Of a stretch of DNA of 64,000 nt, positions 6,601-51,042 are shown one piece after another (position 1 is the stretch's first letter; every line of letters starts with the position of its first letter). The position numbers were made by a program, and so were the translations under genes. The DNA is taken from the NCBI RefSeq assembly GCF_029960785.1, contig NZ_JASBQE010000013.1:62001-126000 (forward strand). Reading direction: 5' to 3'. The notes beneath the pieces are model-generated. The model was not told where the DNA came from. It saw nothing but the letters and a program-made list of their open reading frames with translations, and did no database searches. This DNA comes from Polyangium sp. 15x6. GTDB taxonomy: Bacteria; Myxococcota_A; Polyangia; Polyangiales; Polyangiaceae.

Positions 6601-9508
6601 CCACGCGGCGCGCACCGCCGCCGAGGAGCGCGAGCCCGTCGCCGAGGCCTTCAGCGAGATCCATGGGGGGATCTTCCAGCTCATCGCCGGGGACGACCTC
6701 GATCGCGTCACGCACGACCTCGACCGCATGGCCTACCGCGACCCGATGGCCATGGGCTTCCGGGACATCCTCGCCCGCTCGGTCGCCGCGCTCTCCGAGG
6801 CCCAGGCCGCGCGCGACGTCGAGCAGACACTCGAGGAAATCGCGCGGTCCGGGCGAGACGCGCCATCGCGGGTCTTCGTGGTCACCACGATGGCGATGGC
6901 GGGTTTTACGGGGCTCCACCTCGGCGCCGATGCGTGGGCGGCCCTCGCGGTCCTCGCGGTCGAGCCGGACTGGCCTTCCTTGTGGGGCACCTCCCCGCTC
7001 CTCGCCCTCACGCCCACGCTCTGCGTCGCCGGAGCGCATGCCCGCCCCGCCGCCGAGCATCACGCGCGGCTCGAGGATCGGCTGGCCTTCCACGGCGCGC
7101 GCCTCACTCTCTGGGCCGAGAGCTGCCCCGAGACCTTCGAGGCCTCGCGCCTGCTCATGGAGGCGGGCCGCGTCCGCGCCCGGGAAGAGCACGACGAGGC
7201 CGGACGGCTGTACGACCGGGCCATCGAGCAGGCTCGCGACAGCGATCTCATCAACGTCGAGGCGCTCGGCCTGCGCCTCGCCGGCGAGCACCGCCTCGCC
7301 CGTGGGCACCGCGCCCTCGCCCGCGCCTATCTCACGGCCGCGCACGACGCCTACCTGCGCTGGGGGGCGCGCGCGGCCGCCGCGCGGCTCGCCCAGCGCT
7401 ACCCGGACAGCATCGCGGGCTCGGGCCGCGCGGCCCTCGGGGCCGGCGAGCCGGCGGACGCGGCGTCCGTGCCGACGAGCACGACCATCACCGCCCGCAC
7501 GCTGAACGCGTCCCTGGACATCGCCTCCGTGCTGCGCGCCGCACAGGCGCTCTCCGGCGACCGCAACCTCGGCTCGCTCGTCGGCCGCATGCTCCGCCTG
7601 CTCGCCGAGTACTCCGGCGCCGAGCGCGCGGTGCTCGCCCTCGTGCAAGGCGACGAGCTCGTCATCGCCGCGGAGCTCTCGGTCAACCCGCAGCGACTCG
7701 AGCTCTCGCTGAACGAGCCCGTCGCCGGCTCGACGCGGCTACCGGCGACGCTGGTGCAGTACATCGCGCGCGGCAAGGAGCCGGTGGTGTGCGGGCAGGC
7801 GGCGTCCGACAGCCGCTTCGACGAGGACCCCTACCTGCTCGCCCACCGGCCCGGATCGGTGCTGGCCGTGCCGCTCTTGCACCAGGCGCGCCTGTCCGGG
7901 GTGATGTACCTGGAGCACCCGCACGTGCAGGACGCCTTCCCCGAAGCGCGCGTCGAGCTGGTCACGCTCCTCGGCGCGCTGGCGGCGACGGCGGTGGAGA
8001 ACGCCAGGTTTTATACCGAGCTGTCCGCCTACAGCGAGCGGCTCGCGCGCGAGGTCGCACAGCGCACCGCGGAGCTCGTGGCCGCCAAGGAGGCGGCCGA
8101 TGGTGCCAACCGCGCGAAGAGCGATTTCCTCTCCAGCATGAGCCACGAGCTGCGCACGCCGCTGAACAGCATCCTCGGTTATGCCCAGGTGCTCGGCAAG
8201 CTCTCCGGCCTGCCCCCGAAGGCCGCCGAGTCGGCGCGTATCATTCACACCGCCGGCACGCACCTCTTGAGCCTCATCAATGACGTCCTCGATCTGGCCA
8301 AGATCGAGGCCGGCAAGCTCACCTTCCACACGGCCGCCGTCGACCTCGATGCGCTCCTCCGGACCGTCGCCAACCTCTGCTGGGTGCGCGCCGAGCAGAA
8401 GGGCCTCTCCTTCGTTTACGAGCATGTCGGCCCGAAGCAGCTCGGCGTGCGCGCCGACGAGAAACGCCTCATGCAGGTGCTGCTCAACTTGCTCGGCAAT
8501 GCCATCAAGTTCACCGAGCAGGGCGGGGTGACATTGCACGTCGAGGTGCTGGAGCCGCCGAAGGACGAGGGGCGCACCGTGCGCTTCCAGGTCGAGGACA
8601 CGGGACCCGGAATCGCCCCCGAGCACCTCTCGCGCATCTTCGAGGCTTTCGAGCAGATCGGCGATTCGAAGCGGCATACCGAGGGCTCGGGGCTCGGGCT
8701 CGCCATTACCAAGGAGCTCGTCGAGCGGATGGGCGGCAGCATCGAGGTCCATAGCCAGCTCGGCCGAGGCACCGTGTTCACGGTGACGCTCCGTCTGGTC
8801 GAGACGACCCCCGTCAAGGGGAGCGCGGGGCTGTCGTGGGAGGCCATCATCGGGTACGAGGGCAAGCGCCGCTCGATCCTCGTGGTCGACGACAAGGCCG
8901 ACAACCGCGCGCTCTTGCGCGACCTGCTCGAGCCGCTCGGCTTCGAATGGCTGGAGGCCGACAGCGGCGAGCGTTCGCTCGCGCTCACCCACGAGCGAAC
9001 GCCGGACGTCATCCTCATGGACCTCTCCATGCCGGGCATGGATGGCTACGAGGCGATCCGGCGCTTGCGGCAGAGGCCGGAGCTCGCCAGGACCGTGATC
9101 ATCGCCTCGTCGGCCAGCACTTCGGAGACGGAGCGGCAGACGAGCCTCTGCGCGGGATGCGACGACTTCTTGCCCAAGCCCGTGCAGGCCGGCGCGCTCC
9201 TCGAGCTACTCCGCGCGACGCTTCAGCTCGAGTGGGTGCGCCGAGAGGGGCAGGGCGCGGCCGCGGCCAGACCACCCAGGAACGATGCGGAGATCCACGA
9301 TCTCACGCGGCCGCCGGCGGAGGAGCTCGGGCGGCTCGTGGAGCTCGCCGATCGAGGGCTCGTCAGCAGGGTCCTCCACGAGCTCGATCGGCTCGAACAG
9401 GCCGACCCCCGGCTCGGTCCGTGGATCGGCGAGGTGCGCGCGGTGGCCAAGAGCTTCCAGACCAAGCGGCTCCGCTCCTTGCTCCGGGCTCGGCTCGATT
9501 CGACGTGA
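3620..9508 (+). CDS. Trifunctional Ser/Thr kinase - AAA ATPase - GAF - histidine kinase - receiver protein
   Basis: A 1962-residue signalling protein. Order: Ser/Thr kinase domain at about 1-270 (Lys32 in VVLKF, HRD at 122-124, DFE instead of DFG at 143-145, APE at 171-173); a large ATPase with Walker A GPSGVGKS at about 326-333 and Walker B LFIDDLQW with Asp456-Asp457; a long helical region to about 1280; GAF domain at about 1295-1450; dimerisation helix with phospho-acceptor His1509 (SHELRTPLN); ATP-binding domain with Asn1627 and GTGPGIAP/GSGLGL-type boxes; receiver domain with Asp1757-Asp1758, phospho-acceptor Asp1801 and Lys1853. A C-terminal tail of about 90 residues follows. No membrane segment is seen, so the protein is probably soluble and senses a cytoplasmic signal through GAF. 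This architecture is known in myxobacteria and cyanobacteria. The next gene, 100 bases on, encodes another hybrid kinase and may share the transcript. Confidence 0.93.
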   Translation: MAYVVGEVLHTGTDMRIARAAEAGSGARVVLKFPHGELSTTRALEELRHEYAVLRALEVPGVIRALGLEEHDRKPVLVLEHWGDTSLARVLDQGPLPVEIAMRLAATLARTLGEVHRRGLLHRDVKPHNILVDAERTRTCLIDFELATWWTPTLAEQTSLEAVSGTLAYMAPEQTGRMNRAPDARADLYALGATLYQMLTGALLFDATDALELIHAHIARAPVPPHERAPERGIPEAVSAIVLKLLAKSPEDRYQTAGGAAWDLERAAHAWVETGTVAPFPLARRDWDDRVRTPSRLFGREHESAVLAELFDEACRGATALSLVAGPSGVGKSALVQALQGKVRARRGIFATGKFDQLQRSTPYAALAQALRSVVRRRLSDPADVLERWKLSFQEAAGPNGQILVELIPELLHILGEPKPLLELGPMEAKHRFQTTVLRFVQALATVEHPLVLFIDDLQWADAASLSLLGELLKEPRGQHLLVVGAYRDEAVGPDHPLHALLGAPAAPGARTERIVLSPLGADAVAAMVGDMLDRPGAEVDELARLIKDKTDGSPFFVGQFLQLLHERKLVVRDAETGRWQWQRDAIERAGITDNVVSLLTRKLERLSPALRRALQTAACVGDRFDAGLLAHLLGQDAVTVGALLVQATREGLLVHEGERAHEAYAFVHDRVQQAAYEALTAEERLSLHLGIGRTLRARYGAACADGELFETLYHRNRAAERLTEAGEKRDLAEQNLRAGQRAKASAADAQAVAFLGTAASLLGDEGWTEAPETTFEVHLAMAEALWLAAEVDEGERLFLRCLERARDPLERARVASISIVFLHVTGRFAQGIELGLSALSWLERPLPRTPEEQQALFDALITEIEPALQRMTVEDWKALPISADRAHALRSRILEVLGPCAAFWMPSLSRCCWPMLVRETLRYGLTKNSFAGCVVTALLLAYLLGNLPLGRRLNEPMLALIDQYDFARATARFNGTVASMYWTPPSKMRELYAHAARTAAEEREPVAEAFSEIHGGIFQLIAGDDLDRVTHDLDRMAYRDPMAMGFRDILARSVAALSEAQAARDVEQTLEEIARSGRDAPSRVFVVTTMAMAGFTGLHLGADAWAALAVLAVEPDWPSLWGTSPLLALTPTLCVAGAHARPAAEHHARLEDRLAFHGARLTLWAESCPETFEASRLLMEAGRVRAREEHDEAGRLYDRAIEQARDSDLINVEALGLRLAGEHRLARGHRALARAYLTAAHDAYLRWGARAAAARLAQRYPDSIAGSGRAALGAGEPADAASVPTSTTITARTLNASLDIASVLRAAQALSGDRNLGSLVGRMLRLLAEYSGAERAVLALVQGDELVIAAELSVNPQRLELSLNEPVAGSTRLPATLVQYIARGKEPVVCGQAASDSRFDEDPYLLAHRPGSVLAVPLLHQARLSGVMYLEHPHVQDAFPEARVELVTLLGALAATAVENARFYTELSAYSERLAREVAQRTAELVAAKEAADGANRAKSDFLSSMSHELRTPLNSILGYAQVLGKLSGLPPKAAESARIIHTAGTHLLSLINDVLDLAKIEAGKLTFHTAAVDLDALLRTVANLCWVRAEQKGLSFVYEHVGPKQLGVRADEKRLMQVLLNLLGNAIKFTEQGGVTLHVEVLEPPKDEGRTVRFQVEDTGPGIAPEHLSRIFEAFEQIGDSKRHTEGSGLGLAITKELVERMGGSIEVHSQLGRGTVFTVTLRLVETTPVKGSAGLSWEAIIGYEGKRRSILVVDDKADNRALLRDLLEPLGFEWLEADSGERSLALTHERTPDVILMDLSMPGMDGYEAIRRLRQRPELARTVIIASSASTSETERQTSLCAGCDDFLPKPVQAGALLELLRATLQLEWVRREGQGAAAARPPRNDAEIHDLTRPPAEELGRLVELADRGLVSRVLHELDRLEQADPRLGPWIGEVRAVAKSFQTKRLRSLLRARLDST

Positions 9509-9608: not shown

Positions 9609-11393
9609 ATGAGCAGAACAGCGCATGATGCTCCGTCGCACACCATCCTGATTGTCGACGACGTGCCCGCCAGCCTGGCCACGGCGATCGCGCACCTGGA
9701 AGAGCGCGGCTATCTGGTGGCGATCGCCCAGGATGGAGAAGACGCGCTCGAGCGGGCCGAGCTCCTCCTGCCTGATCTGATCCTGCTCGATGTATTGATG
9801 CCGGGGCTCGATGGCTTCGAGACGTGCCGACGCCTGAAAGCGTCCGAAAAAACCAGAGGGATCCCGGTGATTTTCATGACCGCGCTGGGGGAGACGTCCC
9901 GCAAGGTCGCCGGGTTCGAAGCGGGCGGCGTCGATTACGTCGTCAAGCCGCTCGAGATCACCGAGGTCGTCGCGCGAATCGAGACCCACGTGGCCTTGCA
10001 CGCGATGCGCGCGCAGCTCGAGGCGCAGAACTCGCAGTTGCGGCGGGAGAACGCCATGCGCGAGGAGCTCGCGGCCGAGCTGCGACGTGCCCACGACAGG
10101 CTGGAGAGAAGAGTCGAGGAGCGAACGGTCGAGCTCGCCGCGGCCAATCTCATCCTGAAACAAGAGATCACCGATCGGAAGCGCGTCGAGGAGGAGCGGG
10201 AGAGGCTGCTCGCCGGCGAGCAGGCGGCGCGCGCCAAGGCCGAGGCCGCCGACCGATTGAAGGACGAGTTCCTCTCCACGCTGAGCCACGAGCTCCGGAC
10301 CCCATTGACCGCCATCCTCGGCTGGGCGCAGTTGCTCCTCCGCATGGACCCCTTGGACCTCGCCAAGGTGCAGCGCGGCCTCGAGGTCATCGAGCGCAAT
10401 GGCATGGCCGAGCTCAGGCTCGTCGAAACGCTCCTCGACGTCTCCGCCGTCATCCGCGGCAAGGTGGACTTGAAGCTCGGGCCCGTCGACATCGCCCAGG
10501 TCATCCAGGCGGCCGTCGACGCCGCGACGCCGAATGCGGAAGCGAAGCGCGTTTGCATCTCGCTGCTCCTCGGCTCGCCGACCCGGAGGGTCCTTGGCGA
10601 TCACGGCAGGTTGGAGCAGGTCGTCCGGAATCTGCTGAGCAACGCCGTCAAATTCACGCCTTCCGGCGGGCGCGTGACGATATCGCTTCGAGAGGTGGGA
10701 GCGATGGCCGAGCTCCGCGTCAGCGACACGGGCGAGGGGATCGGCATCGATGTTCTTCCCCATGTGTTCGACCAGTTTCGCCAGGCCGACAGCTCGTCCA
10801 CGCGTCGGCACGGCGGGCTTGGCCTGGGGCTGACGATCGTGCGGGATCTGGTGAGAATGCACGGCGGCACGGTTCGTGGGGAGAGCGACGGTGAGGGGAG
10901 GGGCGCGGTGTTCACCGTTGAATTGCCTCTGATGCCGTCACTCGACGAGATCGCTCCGTTGCCTTCGTTCGGCGCAGGGGAATGCGCTGGGGCGTTCTCC
11001 TCGATCCTGGCGGGGCTCCGCGTGCTCGTGGTGGACGACGAATCCGACATGCGAGAGCTGATGAAGTGTATCCTGGGCGAGGCCGGGGCGGAGGTCCGCG
11101 TGGCGACGGTCGCGCGGGAAGGCTTCGAGATTTTCGAGCGGTGGCGGCCGGATGTCCTCGTGAGCGACATCGGGCTGCCGGACGAGGATGGGTATGCGCT
11201 GATCAAAAAGATTCGGGCGCTGCCCGTCGATCGGGGCGGTCGAACGCCCGCGGCCGCGCTGACCGCCTACGCCGACTCGTACACGCGCGAACGGAGTTTA
11301 TTGGCGGGATACCAGGTGCATGTCTCCAAGCCGGTCCATCCGACCTCGTTCAAGGAAATGGTCGCCAGGCTGGGGCAGCCTCGGCGGGTTTGA
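9609..11393 (+). CDS. Soluble hybrid histidine kinase: receiver - kinase - receiver
   Basis: A 594-residue protein. The first receiver (about 10-130) has Asp17-Asp18, phospho-acceptor Asp61 in LLDVLMPGLDG and Lys113. A coiled coil of about 80 residues (130-210) leads to the histidine kinase with His227 (STLSHELRTPL) and a complete ATP-binding domain (NLLSNAVKF; GLGLGLTIV). The second receiver has Asp476-Asp477 and phospho-acceptor Asp520 (SDIGLPDEDG). No membrane segment or output domain is present, so it probably relays phosphate to or from another protein. Its ATG follows a GGGGAGGA ribosome site. Position directly behind the trifunctional kinase suggests both belong to one phosphorelay; a phosphotransfer partner is not encoded here. 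Confidence 0.93.
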   Translation: MSRTAHDAPSHTILIVDDVPASLATAIAHLEERGYLVAIAQDGEDALERAELLLPDLILLDVLMPGLDGFETCRRLKASEKTRGIPVIFMTALGETSRKVAGFEAGGVDYVVKPLEITEVVARIETHVALHAMRAQLEAQNSQLRRENAMREELAAELRRAHDRLERRVEERTVELAAANLILKQEITDRKRVEEERERLLAGEQAARAKAEAADRLKDEFLSTLSHELRTPLTAILGWAQLLLRMDPLDLAKVQRGLEVIERNGMAELRLVETLLDVSAVIRGKVDLKLGPVDIAQVIQAAVDAATPNAEAKRVCISLLLGSPTRRVLGDHGRLEQVVRNLLSNAVKFTPSGGRVTISLREVGAMAELRVSDTGEGIGIDVLPHVFDQFRQADSSSTRRHGGLGLGLTIVRDLVRMHGGTVRGESDGEGRGAVFTVELPLMPSLDEIAPLPSFGAGECAGAFSSILAGLRVLVVDDESDMRELMKCILGEAGAEVRVATVAREGFEIFERWRPDVLVSDIGLPDEDGYALIKKIRALPVDRGGRTPAAALTAYADSYTRERSLLAGYQVHVSKPVHPTSFKEMVARLGQPRRV

Positions 11394-12592: not shown

Positions 12593-12922
12593 ATGAGAAC
12601 GACCCTGCGCGCGATGACGGCGATCGTGCTGGATTGCTTGCAGATGAAGCGGATTGCCATCGCACTGGTCGCCTCACTCCTGGTGATGGTGTGCGTCGCA
12701 CCGGCACGTGCAGCGCAGTGGGATCCCTGCGATGGAGTCGTCTGTCCTCCAGGACAGGTATGCATGGCGCCCATGGACCGCCCCATGTGTGTTACCCGTC
12801 CTGGTCCTTGCGATCGCATTACGTGCGGCCGACTGGGGAGGTGCGTCGTGATCGACGGCGTCCCGACTTGCGTGCCACGGCTTGGCATCATCCCTGGTCG
12901 GGCGGGGAGCCGCGACCGGTGA
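12593..12922 (+). CDS. Small exported cysteine-rich protein
   Basis: A protein of 109 residues, with ten Cys mostly in two similar units, each of the form C-D-x-V/I-x-C-x-x-G-x-C followed by V-x-x-x-P-x-C-V. These resemble small disulfide units of follistatin/EGF type seen in myxobacterial secreted proteins. A signal peptide is visible starting at the second in-frame Met (MKRIAIALVASLLV, cut near ARA-AQ). The first ATG has the better ribosome site (GGAGGAGGGG) and would add 17 residues before the signal peptide; the second ATG (12644) is the alternative start. The last 35 bases overlap the end of the convergent racemase gene. Role unknown. Confidence 0.7.
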   Translation: MRTTLRAMTAIVLDCLQMKRIAIALVASLLVMVCVAPARAAQWDPCDGVVCPPGQVCMAPMDRPMCVTRPGPCDRITCGRLGRCVVIDGVPTCVPRLGIIPGRAGSRDR

Positions 12923-13742
12923 CGTCGCCCGCCGTCGCTGCTGCAGCGCATACGCGGACCCTCGTCCCGATCGGCGCGGGCGTATCGAAGAGCTTCCACC
13001 TTTTCAGCTCCTCTTCAGGCGGAGGCTCCCCGCCCCACACGCGGCTCGGCTTCCAGCCGAAATCTCTCTTGAGGCCGGCGAGGTGCTCTGCGCTCTTGAA
13101 GGCCGCGATCAGGCAGTCGATCACCGGCACGCCGAGGGTCCGCTGAAGCTCCTCGAAGAAACCGTATTCGACCGTGCACCCGAGCACGATGGCCTCCGCG
13201 GCATCCTCGCGGATCGCTTTTTGCGCCTGCTCCATCAGGAGCGCCTTCGTGCGCTCGGGGTCCGCCTGAAGCTCACGCACCCTCATGCCGATGGGGCGCA
13301 TCGACGTGAGGAACCGGCGAAGGCCATACGACTCGATGAGCGACTCCATCTCGTCGATCCATTTCCTTTCACCGACGACGACCGAGAACCTGTGCGCGAG
13401 ATTTCTCACGATATCAAGCGACGCCTGCGCAGGACCCACGACGACCGCGTCTCCCGAGATCTCGCGCGCTGCGAGGACGGCTGTATCGTAGAAGCACCCG
13501 ATGACGACCGCGTCAAAACCGTTCTCCGCGGCATCTCTCGTCACCCGGACGATGTTCCCAGTCACCAGCGCCTCGTACGTCCTGTACTCCAGGTTGTCGA
13601 TCGGATGCCCCGGATCGAGCGTGACCACTTCGAGATCGGTCTCAGGGCGCTTGATGGCTCCGAGGATGGCAGCCATCCGCTCCACCGTGTCAGAGACGCC
13701 GACCGGGTCGATGTACCGGATTTTGACGGAACGGTGCATCAT
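12888..13742 (-). CDS. Asp/Glu/hydantoin racemase-family protein
   Basis: A 284-residue protein with both catalytic cysteines of the cofactor-independent Asp/Glu racemase superfamily: Cys83 in VIGCFYDTAV and Cys189 in VLGCTVEYGF, each placed where the two-base mechanism needs one. The N-terminal strand IRYIDPVG and the length resemble hydantoin or AroM-like members more than MurI, so a role in amino-acid or hydantoin metabolism rather than wall synthesis is likelier; the substrate is unknown. The start is a double ATG preceded by AGAAGG. The 3' end overlaps the convergent small Cys-rich gene by 35 bases. Confidence 0.85.
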   Translation of the reverse strand: MMHRSVKIRYIDPVGVSDTVERMAAILGAIKRPETDLEVVTLDPGHPIDNLEYRTYEALVTGNIVRVTRDAAENGFDAVVIGCFYDTAVLAAREISGDAVVVGPAQASLDIVRNLAHRFSVVVGERKWIDEMESLIESYGLRRFLTSMRPIGMRVRELQADPERTKALLMEQAQKAIREDAAEAIVLGCTVEYGFFEELQRTLGVPVIDCLIAAFKSAEHLAGLKRDFGWKPSRVWGGEPPPEEELKRWKLFDTPAPIGTRVRVCAAAATAGDVTGRGSPPDQG

Positions 13743-42310: not shown

Positions 42311-42330
42311 CGCGCGGGCGGATTGCCCAG

Positions 42331-42662
42331 CAAGGCGCCGCGCCGGGGCTCTGCCCCGGGCCCCGCGGGGGCTGTTCGCCCCTCGACCCGAACCAGGGCA
42401 AGCCCTGGACTCGGGTTGGAAGAACTGCGCTCCGCGCAGTTCTTCCAACGGGCCGGTTGGAAGACCAGGGACGGCGTTGCCGGCTGAGAGGTCAGCGCGG
42501 CAGTCTTTGGTTGGCAGGGTCGTAGCTGGTCTTGAGTCGGCTGTTCGATGAACTGCGCATCGCGCAGTTCATCGACCCCGGGTCCAGCGCTTGCGCTGGT
42601 CCGGGTCCAGGGGCGGATAGCCCCTGGTGGGGCCTGGGGCGAAGCCCCAGCGAAGCGGTCCC
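42331..42662 (+). repeat. Dispersed two-hairpin (BIME-like) repeat, copy 3
   Basis: A-to-B order as in copy 2: hairpin A with loop TCC at 42418-42446 and hairpin B with loop ATC at 42547-42573. The core between them carries a few extra bases compared with copy 4. It begins 20 bases after the HAD gene. The bases from 42663 to 42775 hold a likely promoter region (TATATACTC near 42760) for the next operon. Confidence 0.85.
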
Positions 42663-46039: not shown

Positions 46040-46045
46040 ACGACG

Positions 46046-46348
46046 CAAGCCGCCGCGCCGGGGCTCCGCCCCGGGCCCCGCGGGGGCTGTCCGCCCCTCG
46101 ACCCGGACCAGGCACGGCCTGGACCGAGGGTGGAAGAACTGCGCTTCGCGCAGTTCTTCCAACGGGCCGGTTGGACCGCGTTGCCAGTCGAAAGGGCAGT
46201 GCGGCGGTCTTGGTTGGCAGCGTCGTCGCCCGTTCGATGAACTGCGCATCGCGCAGTTCATCGACCCCGGGTCCAGCGCTTGCGCTGGTCCGGGTCCAGG
46301 GGCGGACAGCCCCTGGTGGGGCCTGGGGCAACGCCCCAGCGCGGCGGC
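46046..46348 (+). repeat. Dispersed two-hairpin (BIME-like) repeat, copy 4
   Basis: A-to-B order, the shortest full copy (about 303 bp): hairpin A with loop TTC at 46132-46160 and hairpin B with loop ATC at 46236-46262. It occupies the whole gap between the stop of the propeller lipoprotein and that of the leftward gene, so it probably acts as a bidirectional barrier to transcription. Confidence 0.85.
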
Positions 46349-46350
46349 CC

Positions 46351-47299: not shown

Positions 47300-47362
47300 G
47301 ACGCGTTCGCGGTGGCTCCCGACGTGTTTGCGGTGGTGGTGGACGCGTTCGCGGTGGTGGTC
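47300..47362. repeat. 21-bp tandem repeat, three units
   Basis: Units start at 47300, 47321 and 47342 and resemble GACGCGTTCGCGGTGGTGG. They lie in the 208-bp gap between the unknown helical gene and the operon of unknown genes with ParA. Two helical turns per unit would suit stacked protein binding, and a partition-type ATPase is encoded close by, but three imperfect copies are weak evidence. Short in-frame translation is possible on the plus strand and was not accepted as a gene. Confidence 0.6.
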
Positions 47363-47410
47363 GACGGGGGAGCGGTGGGTGGGCGACGGGCGGAGGGCGC
47401 GTGACGCCGG

Positions 47411-48274
47411 CTAGCCTCCCGGATGGGCGATCCGCACGCGGCCTGTCTTGTCGCGCGCGAGGCCGGCAGGACTCATGCGGGGGTTGCGGTTGCTCTCGCG
47501 AAGGTGCTGGAGCGCCGCGGAGCGCTGATGCTCGGCCCATGTCAAGGGCACCTCTCCGAGGCAACGCAGGAACCGCGCGCGCCCTTCGCGCCGCATGGAA
47601 AGGAGCATGTAGCGCCGGATGGGCTGGGAGATGAGCATGTACGGGCCGAGGTGATAGAGCGCGAGGAGCAGGAGCGAGCTCTCGCAGAGGCGCCGCAGGA
47701 AGTCCGTGAGCTCTTGGGCGCGTGGCGGATCGAGCCCGACCGAGCGGATGTTCTTGTACATGTTCCGGTACCGGGCGGTCGACCCGTGCACGAAGCGGCT
47801 CGACTGCACGTAAACCGCGCTGATCTCCGCGAACAACGAGGTGTCGTCGCCTTCGTCGTCCTTCTTCGATGCCGAGCGGAAGTGCGGGAGCCTCTGGATC
47901 TCCTCGGACTGCGCGGCCCACCGATCCCGGATGGCTTCCTCGGGTTCGACCTGGCGCGTGACGAAGAGGGCCGGACGCGAGTCGAAATAGCAATGCCGGA
48001 TCAGGTTCTCCAGCAGGCTCCGCGCGTGGAGGTACGCGGTCCGCTCCATCCCGAGCGCGCAGGCGTAGAGGATGGCCACGATATCGGACTGGACCTCGTC
48101 CAGGAAGACGGGGAGCGCGGCGAAGCGGCTGCAATGGGACGCGAGCCAGGACAGGTAAGCGAGGGGCTCCTGCGCCGCTTTGAGTTCCGGGAGCGGCGCC
48201 GCGGTGGCGTGCTCGACCTGCTTGCGGACCTCGGCGAGGAGCTTGGGGCGCGGGCGCTTATTCGTAGTCGTCAT
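47411..48274 (-). CDS. Unknown protein, DUF5677/HEPN-like features; third gene of the ParA operon
   Basis: A 287-residue helical protein. The segment YVQSSRFVHGSTARYRNMY resembles the S-x-x-x-H-G/x-S centre of DUF5677-type and HEPN-like proteins, some of which are RNases; ARSLLENLIRHCYF also fits. Without alignment this is tentative. A basic C-terminal tail follows (RESNRNPRMSPAGLARDKTG). The start overlaps the stop of the preceding gene by 17 bases, so translation is coupled to it and, through it, to the ParA-type ATPase. Confidence 0.75.
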   Translation of the reverse strand: MTTTNKRPRPKLLAEVRKQVEHATAAPLPELKAAQEPLAYLSWLASHCSRFAALPVFLDEVQSDIVAILYACALGMERTAYLHARSLLENLIRHCYFDSRPALFVTRQVEPEEAIRDRWAAQSEEIQRLPHFRSASKKDDEGDDTSLFAEISAVYVQSSRFVHGSTARYRNMYKNIRSVGLDPPRAQELTDFLRRLCESSLLLLALYHLGPYMLISQPIRRYMLLSMRREGRARFLRCLGEVPLTWAEHQRSAALQHLRESNRNPRMSPAGLARDKTGRVRIAHPGG

Positions 48275-49073
48275 GGCCCTTCTTCGCGTTCGTTCGGCGG
48301 ATCCCGGTCACGGCTAGGTCGGTCGGGCTTCGAAGCCCCCTTTTCAGGAGCTCGAAGGTGATGTCCGGCAGAGTGTTGGGCGCGAGGCGGACCGCGTCCT
48401 CGAAGAGCCTCGACACGAGGTGTTCCCGTGACTCGTCCGGCGCGAAGGGCAAGGGGGAGGGGGCCCAGAGCTCGCGGAGCTTGGCGAGATCGAACGGCTT
48501 GGGAAAGATGATCGTATTCGTGCTGAGTGCCTTGATGGCGGTGTCGCGGAGCAGGAGCTCGATGCGGGCTGCGTGATCGGGCCCGGCCGCAGCAGCGGCG
48601 CTCCGGAGCAGCGAGCCGAACTTCTCGATACGCAACCATGGCTCGGGAAACCGTTTTTCGATGAGCTCGATACTTCGGCAGAGGACGTCCGCGGCGTTGC
48701 GGTTCGGGGAAAACCGCATGCCCGTTAGATGCGACGCGATACGCCTGGCCATGGTTACATCGACGGGGAGCTTCACAAGTTCTCTTTTAACGATCTCGCG
48801 AAACTCCTTCTCGGAGAGATACTCCTCAGGAGACGAGCTCGCCCCCTCCTCCGGCGGCGGCTGGGTCTCGGACGGGGCCTTGACCTCGTTTGCCGGGGCG
48901 TCTCGATGCTGGCCCTTGAACTTGGCGAGCATACGCAGCGCATGCACGAGCTCCTCCTGGCCGAGGATCTTCTCGGCGGCCTCGAAGTCCTCGGCGGAGT
49001 ACTCGTCCACCAGGCCGAGCAGCGCCTTCGCGACCCGCACCCCATTGCCGCTCGAACGTTCCGGCATCTTCAC
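48258..49073 (-). CDS. Unknown protein; second gene of the ParA operon
   Basis: A 271-residue protein with no recognised family. The N-terminal third is helical (AKALLGLVDEYSAEDFEAAE; EELVHALRMLAKF), a low-complexity linker follows (SETQPPPEEGASSSPEEYLS), and the C-terminal two-thirds is another helical domain (FREIVKRELVKLPVDVTMAR; IELIEKRFPEPWLRIEKFG). It ends with basic residues (GIRRTNAKKGHDDYE). Position directly after parA is where ParB-like partners stand, but no ParB N-terminal domain or helix-turn-helix is obvious. Start GTG overlaps the ParA stop (GTGA) and has GGAGGT five bases upstream. Confidence 0.8.
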   Translation of the reverse strand: MKMPERSSGNGVRVAKALLGLVDEYSAEDFEAAEKILGQEELVHALRMLAKFKGQHRDAPANEVKAPSETQPPPEEGASSSPEEYLSEKEFREIVKRELVKLPVDVTMARRIASHLTGMRFSPNRNAADVLCRSIELIEKRFPEPWLRIEKFGSLLRSAAAAAGPDHAARIELLLRDTAIKALSTNTIIFPKPFDLAKLRELWAPSPLPFAPDESREHLVSRLFEDAVRLAPNTLPDITFELLKRGLRSPTDLAVTGIRRTNAKKGHDDYE

Positions 49074-49975
49074 GGTCCACCTCCGATGAGCCCGAGCTCG
49101 GTCGCGATGGCGTCGAGCTCGTCGACGAGCCGGTCGTGGGCAGGTTTTGGGGAGAACGGTAAGGGCGAACGTTTCTCGAACGACTCGGGATAGGCGTTGT
49201 CCCTTGAAATGGACTGCATCAGGCACGGGATCGCGGGGACGTTGGTTGCGCATGCCTCGCGAATCCGTTGCGCGTAATTCTCAGCGCCCGTCCGCCGCGC
49301 GTCCCCATCCGGGGGAAACAGGCTCAGCACCACCCCTGCGACCTTCGCCTGGATATCATAGACCTTCTTGTACCGGGCGAGGGTCTCCAAGAGAATCCGC
49401 AAGCCATGGACCGAGAATACGTCCGCGGCCATCGGCACGAGGATGCTGTCGGCCGCCTTCAGCGCGGACAGGCTCAGGCTGCTGATGCTCGGCGGGCAGT
49501 CGATGATGACGTGGTCGTACGCGTCTCCCGTGGTCCGGATCCACCGCTTCAGGCGGGGCAGGACGAGCTCGGCCGCGATCTCCTGCACGTCGAAGAGCTC
49601 GGCGCTGCCGCAGACGAGCGAGAGGGAACCTCCCCCCGCGCACGTCCTCACGAGCTCCCGGCAATTACTCGTGCTCCTTTTCGGTCCGTAATGCTGCCCG
49701 GTGACGACGTCGAGGTACCGGACGTCGCCATGAAAGAGGTCATAGAGGTTGCCCTCCTGCCGCTGCGGGTCGTTGCGTGTCCTCGCGTCGAACCTCGGGT
49801 CGTCGAGCAGGTAGAGGCTCGCGTTGCACTGCGGGTCCGCGTCGATGACGAGCACCTGCTTGTGGTGCTTCTCCGCCAGGAGCGCGGCCAGATTGACGGC
49901 AATCGTCGTTTTTCCGACGCCGCCCTTGATGTTCTGTACCGCCAGCACAGTCCGCTTCTTCGACGCGTCCGTCAT
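49070..49975 (-). CDS. ParA/Soj-type P-loop ATPase; first gene of a three-gene operon
   Basis: A 301-residue ATPase with the deviant Walker A KGGVGKTT (Lys17 and Lys22), Walker A' VLVIDADPQCNASL and the Walker B-like HVIIDCPPS. These mark the ParA/MinD class, which forms ATP-dependent dimers on DNA or membrane and positions cargo. A block of about 70 residues after the DADPQ motif (RTRNDPQRQEGNLYDLFHGD region) is longer than in Soj. It is not next to ParB, SMC, gid or chemotaxis genes, so it is an orphan or belongs with the two unknown genes behind it, which it overlaps. A Met seven codons upstream is an alternative start. The divergent neighbour is a lipoprotein gene 119 bases away. Confidence 0.9.
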   Translation of the reverse strand: MTDASKKRTVLAVQNIKGGVGKTTIAVNLAALLAEKHHKQVLVIDADPQCNASLYLLDDPRFDARTRNDPQRQEGNLYDLFHGDVRYLDVVTGQHYGPKRSTSNCRELVRTCAGGGSLSLVCGSAELFDVQEIAAELVLPRLKRWIRTTGDAYDHVIIDCPPSISSLSLSALKAADSILVPMAADVFSVHGLRILLETLARYKKVYDIQAKVAGVVLSLFPPDGDARRTGAENYAQRIREACATNVPAIPCLMQSISRDNAYPESFEKRSPLPFSPKPAHDRLVDELDAIATELGLIGGGP

Positions 49976-50094
49976 CGTGGTGGCAGCATACGCCATGGCG
50001 ACGCCGTTCGGAAGCAACCAGCCAGGGGCCTCACCTGTCCACGCTGGAAGCATGTTCACGGAGCCACGTTGACCGTGCCGTGGTAGGCTCAGGC

Positions 50095-51042
50095 GTGCAC
50101 GACGATCGGGCGTCCCTGCCCCGCCAAACCTCGCGCCGCGGCGCCGCCCTCGCCCTCCTCCTCTCCACCGCCGCCTGCGGCCGCGTCGGCTCCCGTGCCC
50201 TCGAACCACGCCCGAACGCTGGCCTCTCCACGCGCGGCGCCGGTATCTCGGCCCGTGTCGAGCGTATCCACGTCGGGTACTGGCAACAGAGCGCGAACAC
50301 GCGCGTCGACGTGCACGTCGTCAACGAGGGGAAAACGCCCCTCCACGTCGAGCCTGAGCGAATCGAGCTCGCCGTGCTCGGGAGGCCGTCTCCGCTCGTC
50401 TCCGCTTCCGTGGTCGAAGGCGACGAGGACCTCGCGCCCGGCGAAGGTGGCACCTATCGCCTCACGCTCCCGCGCGCGCCGATCGAATCCGGCGCCCCGT
50501 ACGTCCTCCGCCTCCATCCCGCCGTCCATGCACCCGCCGACGCGCTCGAGCCATTGCCGCTCGTGAATCCGGCGAAGCCGCACCTCGGGTATGGGCCTCC
50601 GGCCGATTCCACGTGGGTCTTCGTCGCTCGCATCGGCGGCGGCGCCATTCGACGGGATGACGTCACGGCGGGGCTCGGCGGGTTCGAGGTCTTCACCGGG
50701 CCGCAGTTCGGTCGATTCTCCTTCGGCCTCAGCGCGATGATCGGCGCGGGCTCGATCGGCGGCGAGGTGCGTTATCGTTTCGAGCCGGCGAAGGTGCTCG
50801 CGATCGTCCCGTTCGCCGGGTACGGGTATTATCCCATCGCGGGGATCGTCGGCCTGAACGCGGGGCACGGGGGACGCGTCGGCGCCGAGCTCCAGTTCTC
50901 GCTCGGTGAGGTCACGCGCTTCGGATGGGCCCGGAGCGGCAGCCGCATGGGCCTCTTCGCCCATGCCGGGCCCGTGTACCTGCGTGTCACCGATTCGGTG
51001 GGCGTCGCTGCACAGGGTGGCCTCACGTTCGGTTTTTTCTAG
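50095..51042 (+). CDS. Lipoprotein with N-terminal beta domain and predicted outer-membrane-like C-terminus
   Basis: A 315-residue lipoprotein (SRRGAALALLLSTAAC). Residues about 55-145 look like an Ig-type beta domain (RVDVHVVNEGKTPLHVEPER); the C-terminal 140 residues alternate aromatic and small residues and end in GLTFGFF, a typical beta-barrel end (GFEVFTGPQFGRFSFGLSAM). The combination is unusual for a lipoprotein and function is unknown. Start GTG; another GTG five codons upstream is possible. Both lack a strong ribosome site. Confidence 0.72.
   Translation: MHDDRASLPRQTSRRGAALALLLSTAACGRVGSRALEPRPNAGLSTRGAGISARVERIHVGYWQQSANTRVDVHVVNEGKTPLHVEPERIELAVLGRPSPLVSASVVEGDEDLAPGEGGTYRLTLPRAPIESGAPYVLRLHPAVHAPADALEPLPLVNPAKPHLGYGPPADSTWVFVARIGGGAIRRDDVTAGLGGFEVFTGPQFGRFSFGLSAMIGAGSIGGEVRYRFEPAKVLAIVPFAGYGYYPIAGIVGLNAGHGGRVGAELQFSLGEVTRFGWARSGSRMGLFAHAGPVYLRVTDSVGVAAQGGLTFGFF

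Follow-up and report, generated by a model that had tools for sequence, protein, structure and literature searches.

ParA ATPases are movers of DNA and cell structures, and an operon in which a ParA-type ATPase is followed by two proteins that match no known family, neither of them a recognisable ParB, raises the question of what is being moved, switched or controlled. Such an operon lies in Polyangium sp. 15x6 (genome of 13.4 Mb in 275 contigs), within the 64,000-nucleotide stretch of contig NZ_JASBQE010000013.1 that was analysed and is here called the window. A preliminary description, made from the letters of the window, had seen in it an ATPase, an adaptor and a possible RNase, in a layout known from defence and from cargo positioning.

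The operon and its ATPase

Three minus-strand open reading frames in the order ParA (P1), P2 and P3 were found as described, with the tight overlaps reported for them: the GTG start of P2 lies inside a 4-base GTGA overlap with ParA, and P2 and P3 share 17 bases. Relatives of the operon keep the 4-base overlap and have one of 11 bases at the second junction. The annotated ATG at 49975 gives a ParA of 301 residues; an in-frame MAYAATTM preceding it is conserved, with relatives using a GTG start there, so that the start is probably at 49996, for 308 residues. Table 1 collects the coordinates.

Placement of the ATPase in the ParA/MinD class was borne out. The protein matches AAA_31 (E=1e-34) and CbiA and carries the deviant Walker A (KGGxGK[T/S]), A' (DxDPQ) and Walker B motifs of the class, which in alignment with chromosomal Soj read KGGVGKT, DADPQ and DCPPS, all intact. 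It has no HTH and carries inserts relative to Soj. Among the defence models of PADLOC-DB 2.0.0 it matches just a short P-loop stretch of the PDC-M28B models.

Table 1. Positions of the operon and associated features in the window
Feature	Position	Strand	Basis
P1, ParA/Soj-type ATPase	49070..49996	-	AAA_31, CbiA, Walker motifs; 68% ortholog in L091; in-frame MAYA start (probable)
P2, 271 aa, helical, matches no known family, 4-base overlap with P1	48258..49073	-	orthologs in four g31 genomes
P2 variable central part, aa ~58-182, including window-specific linker (aa ~58-79)	48528..48902	-	identity drop between close relatives
P3, 287 aa, helical, DUF5677-like signature, matches no known family, 17-base overlap with P2	47411..48274	-	
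P3 signature, RSLLE (aa 85-89) to YVQSSRFVH (aa 155-163)	47786..48022	-	near-invariant in four intact P3; DUF5677 pattern
P3 basic N-terminal tail MTTTNKRPRPKLL (relatives: MASKRQRRESPRERLL), a peptide that may activate ParA	48236..48274	-	analogy, PMC7993993
Mobile unit of the window genome, about 2.67 kb	47398..50064	.	same-genus homology edges; g31 unit of 2.66-2.69 kb
21-bp tandem repeat, ancestral intergenic DNA, not part of the trio	47300..47388	+	present at empty sites

Distribution, conservation and movement of the trio

Searches of all 108 genomes of the family located the trio in the window genome and, outside its genus, in four members of a single further genus (g31), namely G482 (locus L089), G484 (L090), G485 (L091) and G483 (L092, decayed), in the order ParA-P2-P3 in every copy. 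The preliminary description had made its case depend on conservation elsewhere, and these four genomes supply it. Identity to the window proteins is 68% for ParA (the intact copy of L091), 58-59% for P3 and 42-43% for P2 by global alignment (about 39% by tblastn). With dN/dS of 0.1-0.5, all three genes are under purifying selection. Since gene order, overlaps and purifying selection are conserved in a second genus, the arrangement is beyond chance and the trio is a genuine unit.

The unit is also decaying and patchy. Among the g31 copies ParA is intact solely in L091; L089 and L090 carry 1-nt indels in ParA and keep P3 intact despite the frameshift, and L092 has indels and has also lost parts of P2 and P3 by deletion. 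For the ParA genes of L089 and L090, sequencing error is possible, as the indels fall mostly in short homopolymers of single-contig assemblies. One of six genomes of the window genus carries the trio, and the four carriers in g31 stand beside at least two non-carriers (G133 and G143). In samples of the order and phylum, the only hits of P3 outside the window genome were two weak ones within AraC-type genes. The similarity of P3 (aa ~199-266, E ~2e-4) to AraC/GlxA regulators in G125 and G135 was judged to be chance, because it covers part of the HTH region alone and is restricted to two genomes from a single genus. Relatives of P2 and P3 were not found in viral contigs, nor were relatives of P3 in GTDB contigs.

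In g31, DNA homology between copies spans 2.66-2.69 kb: it begins some 110-130 bases ahead of ParA and stops some 20 bases past P3, and the flanks are unrelated in every genome that carries the trio. In the window, homology to genomes of the same genus ends at 47376-47397 and restarts at 50065-50153, which places an insert of about 2.67 kb, the extent of the g31 unit, between 47397 and 50065. In G098 (L109) and G088 (L111) the flanking genes P0004 (46351-47202) and P0005 (50095-51042) are adjacent, with no trio between them, and the same site holds other inserts in two further genomes, a 652-aa gene in G107 (L108) and a CAAX-protease-like gene in G116 (L110). Together, the unrelated flanks and the two same-genus empty sites leave little doubt that the trio moves as a cassette of about 2.67 kb that lacks a recombinase of its own. 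No recombinase was found inside the unit, and the sole candidate for transposon-type terminal inverted repeats, a 6-bp CTGAGC/GCTCAG present in some copies, was rejected as too short. Movement would then proceed by recombination with help from elsewhere.

The 21-bp tandem repeat that had been pointed out just past the operon is real (4.2 copies), and its connection with the operon was not upheld: it is recognisable also at both empty sites, L109 and L111. It belongs to the ancestral intergenic DNA, was thus there before the trio came in, and is not the trio's centromere.

Several features of the insertion sites were observed in passing. The copy in G482, and no other, is surrounded by 127-bp direct repeats (L089:7496-7621 and 10328-10454, 96% identical); the insertion there seems to have duplicated sequence, as the 3' end of a neighbouring sigma-54 regulator gene lies within the right repeat. 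The 652-aa gene at the trio's intergenic site (L108:7594-9552) has no Pfam or PADLOC match. P0004 encodes 283 residues without a family match; of the five other genomes of the genus, four have an ortholog of it at 81-91%, and there are several paralogs at 30-60%. Two GC-rich, internally inverted intergenic repeats of about 320 bp (window 42330-42661 and 46045-46350, 84% identical) have related copies in same-genus genomes (L108 at ~12826-13155 and L110 at ~9062-9393); they have no Rfam match and look like a dispersed palindromic element.

The second protein and its variable centre

Neither P2 nor P3 has a significant match, to ParB or otherwise, in Pfam, NCBIfam, PADLOC or PHROGs; single-sequence PDB searches were likewise empty, and single-sequence structure models (pLDDT 46 for P2 and 42 for P3) were too low in confidence for use. 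P2 had been described as helical domains joined by a low-complexity linker. The linker (aa ~58-79) is present in the window protein and absent from its relatives, and hence is not essential; this part of the description applies to the window alone. Weak matches of P2 to MLLE, Abi_C, DUF4472 and TnsA_C fell below cut-offs, differed between orthologs and were rejected. A C-terminal RRxNxKKxH was also rejected as a HEPN motif, because the protein ends there and leaves no fourth helix. A P2 profile searched against the PDB gave one match, 7bqq (entry name Gogy) with E=4e-4, over profile positions ~60-128, inside the variable helical block described below; no weight is placed on it.

Comparison of the g31 copies reveals that P2 varies in an unusual way. 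DNA identity between L090 and L091 is 81-99% along the unit, except over P2 codons ~65-165, where it drops to 46-72%; between L089 and L091 it stays at 88-97% through P2. At the protein level, identity among the g31 copies is 82-98% in the end regions of P2, and in the middle it is 46-47% when L090 is compared with the other two. Synonymous divergence (dS) between L090 and its relatives is 0.57-0.70 for P2, whereas ParA and P3 from those genomes give 0.11-0.24. In these few genomes the central ~110 residues thus appear to be allele-swapped between close relatives, with the rest conserved, and the pattern suggests exchange of the segment by recombination, as would be expected for a recognition domain.

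A partner with conserved ends and a variable central domain would also suit a partition cassette left by a lost plasmid or element, in which P2 would be an unrecognised centromere-binding protein, its swapped centre would set incompatibility and P3 would be an accessory. ParA as first gene of a tightly coupled operon agrees with this, and the annotated ParA matches outside the two genera (L015-L017 and the annotated plasmid matches L018, L020 and L021) are ParAB partition ATPases; these were rejected as relatives of the trio, and P2 and P3 were not found near the remaining outside ParA loci. As in ParABS (Soj-Spo0J) systems, the ATPase is of Soj type, with all nucleotide-binding motifs and the first position in the operon; unlike them, the trio has no ParB or parS, has two unrelated partner genes, and its ParA has inserts that Soj lacks. 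No parS-like site was found within three mismatches in the 64-kb window, nor inverted repeats upstream of the window ParA, although a centromere of a novel type is conceivable. Moreover, the mobile segment stops at the trio and includes no replication or transfer genes, and relatives were found in none of 72,556 plasmids (P2 and P3) and none of 50,697 phage records (P3). A remnant partition cassette is therefore improbable, and a plain one with a ParB-like P2, the reading that the preliminary description had opposed to its own, finds no support in the same searches for ParB and parS.

The third protein and the DUF5677/HEPN question

P3 had been credited with a DUF5677/HEPN-like centre. The motif on which this was based, RFVHGS, is indeed invariant among complete P3 proteins, and all four of these keep both RSLLE and YxQSSRFVHGS, with RSLLE-YVQSSRFVH invariant but for one residue. 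Five DUF5677 proteins from the phylum share with P3 a two-part signature, R-[STAP]-h-x-[ED] followed after 40-130 residues by Y/F-x3-[SC]-x3-H; with DUF5677 (PF18928) itself P3 has in common R-[ST]-L-x-E ... Y-x3-S-x3-H at comparable spacing. In its strict form (Y) the pattern occurred in 1 of 2,319 unrelated frames and in 56 of 20,000 shuffles of P3. The presence of the signature in P3 is suggestive only, since the pattern was drawn up with both groups already seen. Unlike DUF5677 proteins, P3 gave no HMM or profile-profile match: none of the four P3 proteins reached the Pfam gathering threshold of PF18928 or matched it at E<=10, hhalign gave a probability of 2.7%, and a home-made DUF5677 profile ranked P3 71st to 145th among 3,068 frames. 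No significant similarity to any HEPN profile was found either.

The active site of HEPN RNases is an Rx4-6H motif at the end of helix 3 (PMC3710099), and no such canonical motif was found before His163 of P3. An invariant Arg78-x4-His83 lies N-terminal of that histidine and is a candidate HEPN-type motif. P3 thus carries the signature in its centre, profile similarity and a canonical motif before His163 were not found, and the suggested RNase finds no backing in these comparisons.

This bears directly on a plain toxin-antitoxin dyad of the kind predicted where ParA/Soj ATPases are encoded with the HEPN protein MAE_18760 (PMC3710099), in which P3 would be an RNase toxin and ParA, with P2, its antitoxin. 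In outline the trio resembles those dyads, having a ParA-type ATPase and a helical, possibly HEPN-like protein in one operon and a mobile, conflict-like distribution, with decay of the kind seen in g31. It belongs to them by none of the tests made: the published dyads have no third gene and thus no counterpart of P2, and P3, which bears a DUF5677-like signature, is unmatched by HEPN models and has no canonical active-site motif that ends at His163, the invariant Arg78-x4-His83 lying ahead of that residue. ParA was not found beside MAE_28990-type HEPN genes of the phylum. That two copies keep an intact P3 with a frameshifted ParA makes ParA awkward as a restrainer of a toxin, unless the frameshifts are sequencing errors at homopolymers. 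A simple pair of this kind therefore has a low probability.

A further feature of P3 is its N-terminus, which is basic in all four complete copies. Positively charged N-termini of ParA partners activate the ATPase (PMC7993993), and the tail of P3, by analogy, may be such a peptide. It would suit nucleoid-based positioning of the PomXYZ, McdAB or PpfA-TlpT kind, with ParA on the nucleoid, P2 and P3 as a cargo complex, one of them activating the ATPase through its basic N-terminus, and the variable part of P2 contacting the cargo. The trio shares with PomXYZ of Myxococcus and McdAB of carboxysomes a ParA/MinD ATPase, here typical and without an HTH, two unrelated non-ParB partners, like PomX and PomY, and a basic N-terminal tail on one of them. 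It differs in that P2 and P3 match no curated family and in that the unit moves alone, is lacking in most relatives and adjoins no recognisable cargo gene or locus. Positioning systems known so far occupy conserved loci or serve a conserved cargo, which counts against this reading, and positioning has a fairly low probability.

A possible conflict module

The claim of a defence layout was not sustained at the level of known systems: P2 and P3 are unmatched by the defence models of PADLOC-DB 2.0.0, and no defence island was found around any copy. The sole hint is a DUF6036/AbiEii-like nucleotidyltransferase gene in G482 (L089:5771-6310), which lies 1.4 kb upstream of the copy there.

What nevertheless favours a conflict-type module is that the unit is mobile, patchy and decaying and sits where other accessory genes have been inserted, that the middle of P2 is exchangeable and that P3 is DUF5677-like. 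The published ParA/Soj-HEPN prediction (PMC3710099) speaks for it as well; the failed DUF5677 and HEPN profile comparisons of P3, and the two copies in which ParA is frameshifted beside an intact P3, speak against it. Tentatively, then, the trio is most likely a compact mobile accessory cassette acting in conflict, whether in defence or in an addiction-like role. In such a module ParA would bind ATP and dimerise on DNA, serving as a switch of timing or location; P2 would be the adaptor, its conserved ends binding the partners and its central domain recognising a changing target; and P3, helical and with its basic tail, would stimulate the ParA ATPase and be the effector that the switch releases or positions. 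The binding steps, the target and a toxic or enzymatic nature of P3 are all inferred. The trio could even represent a new class among mobile immune or conflict modules, with the effector controlled or positioned by a ParA-type ATPase and the target recognised by an adaptor that evolves through exchange of its central domain; this extension must be considered unlikely at present.

In summary, the locus appears to be a small cassette that, with natural alleles and empty sites at hand, is readily testable. If the conflict reading is true, a ParA operon that is self-contained, hops between sites, lacks ParB and has a partner with an exchangeable centre would connect ParA switching with conflict biology, as had been proposed on paper for ParA-HEPN pairs (PMC3710099).
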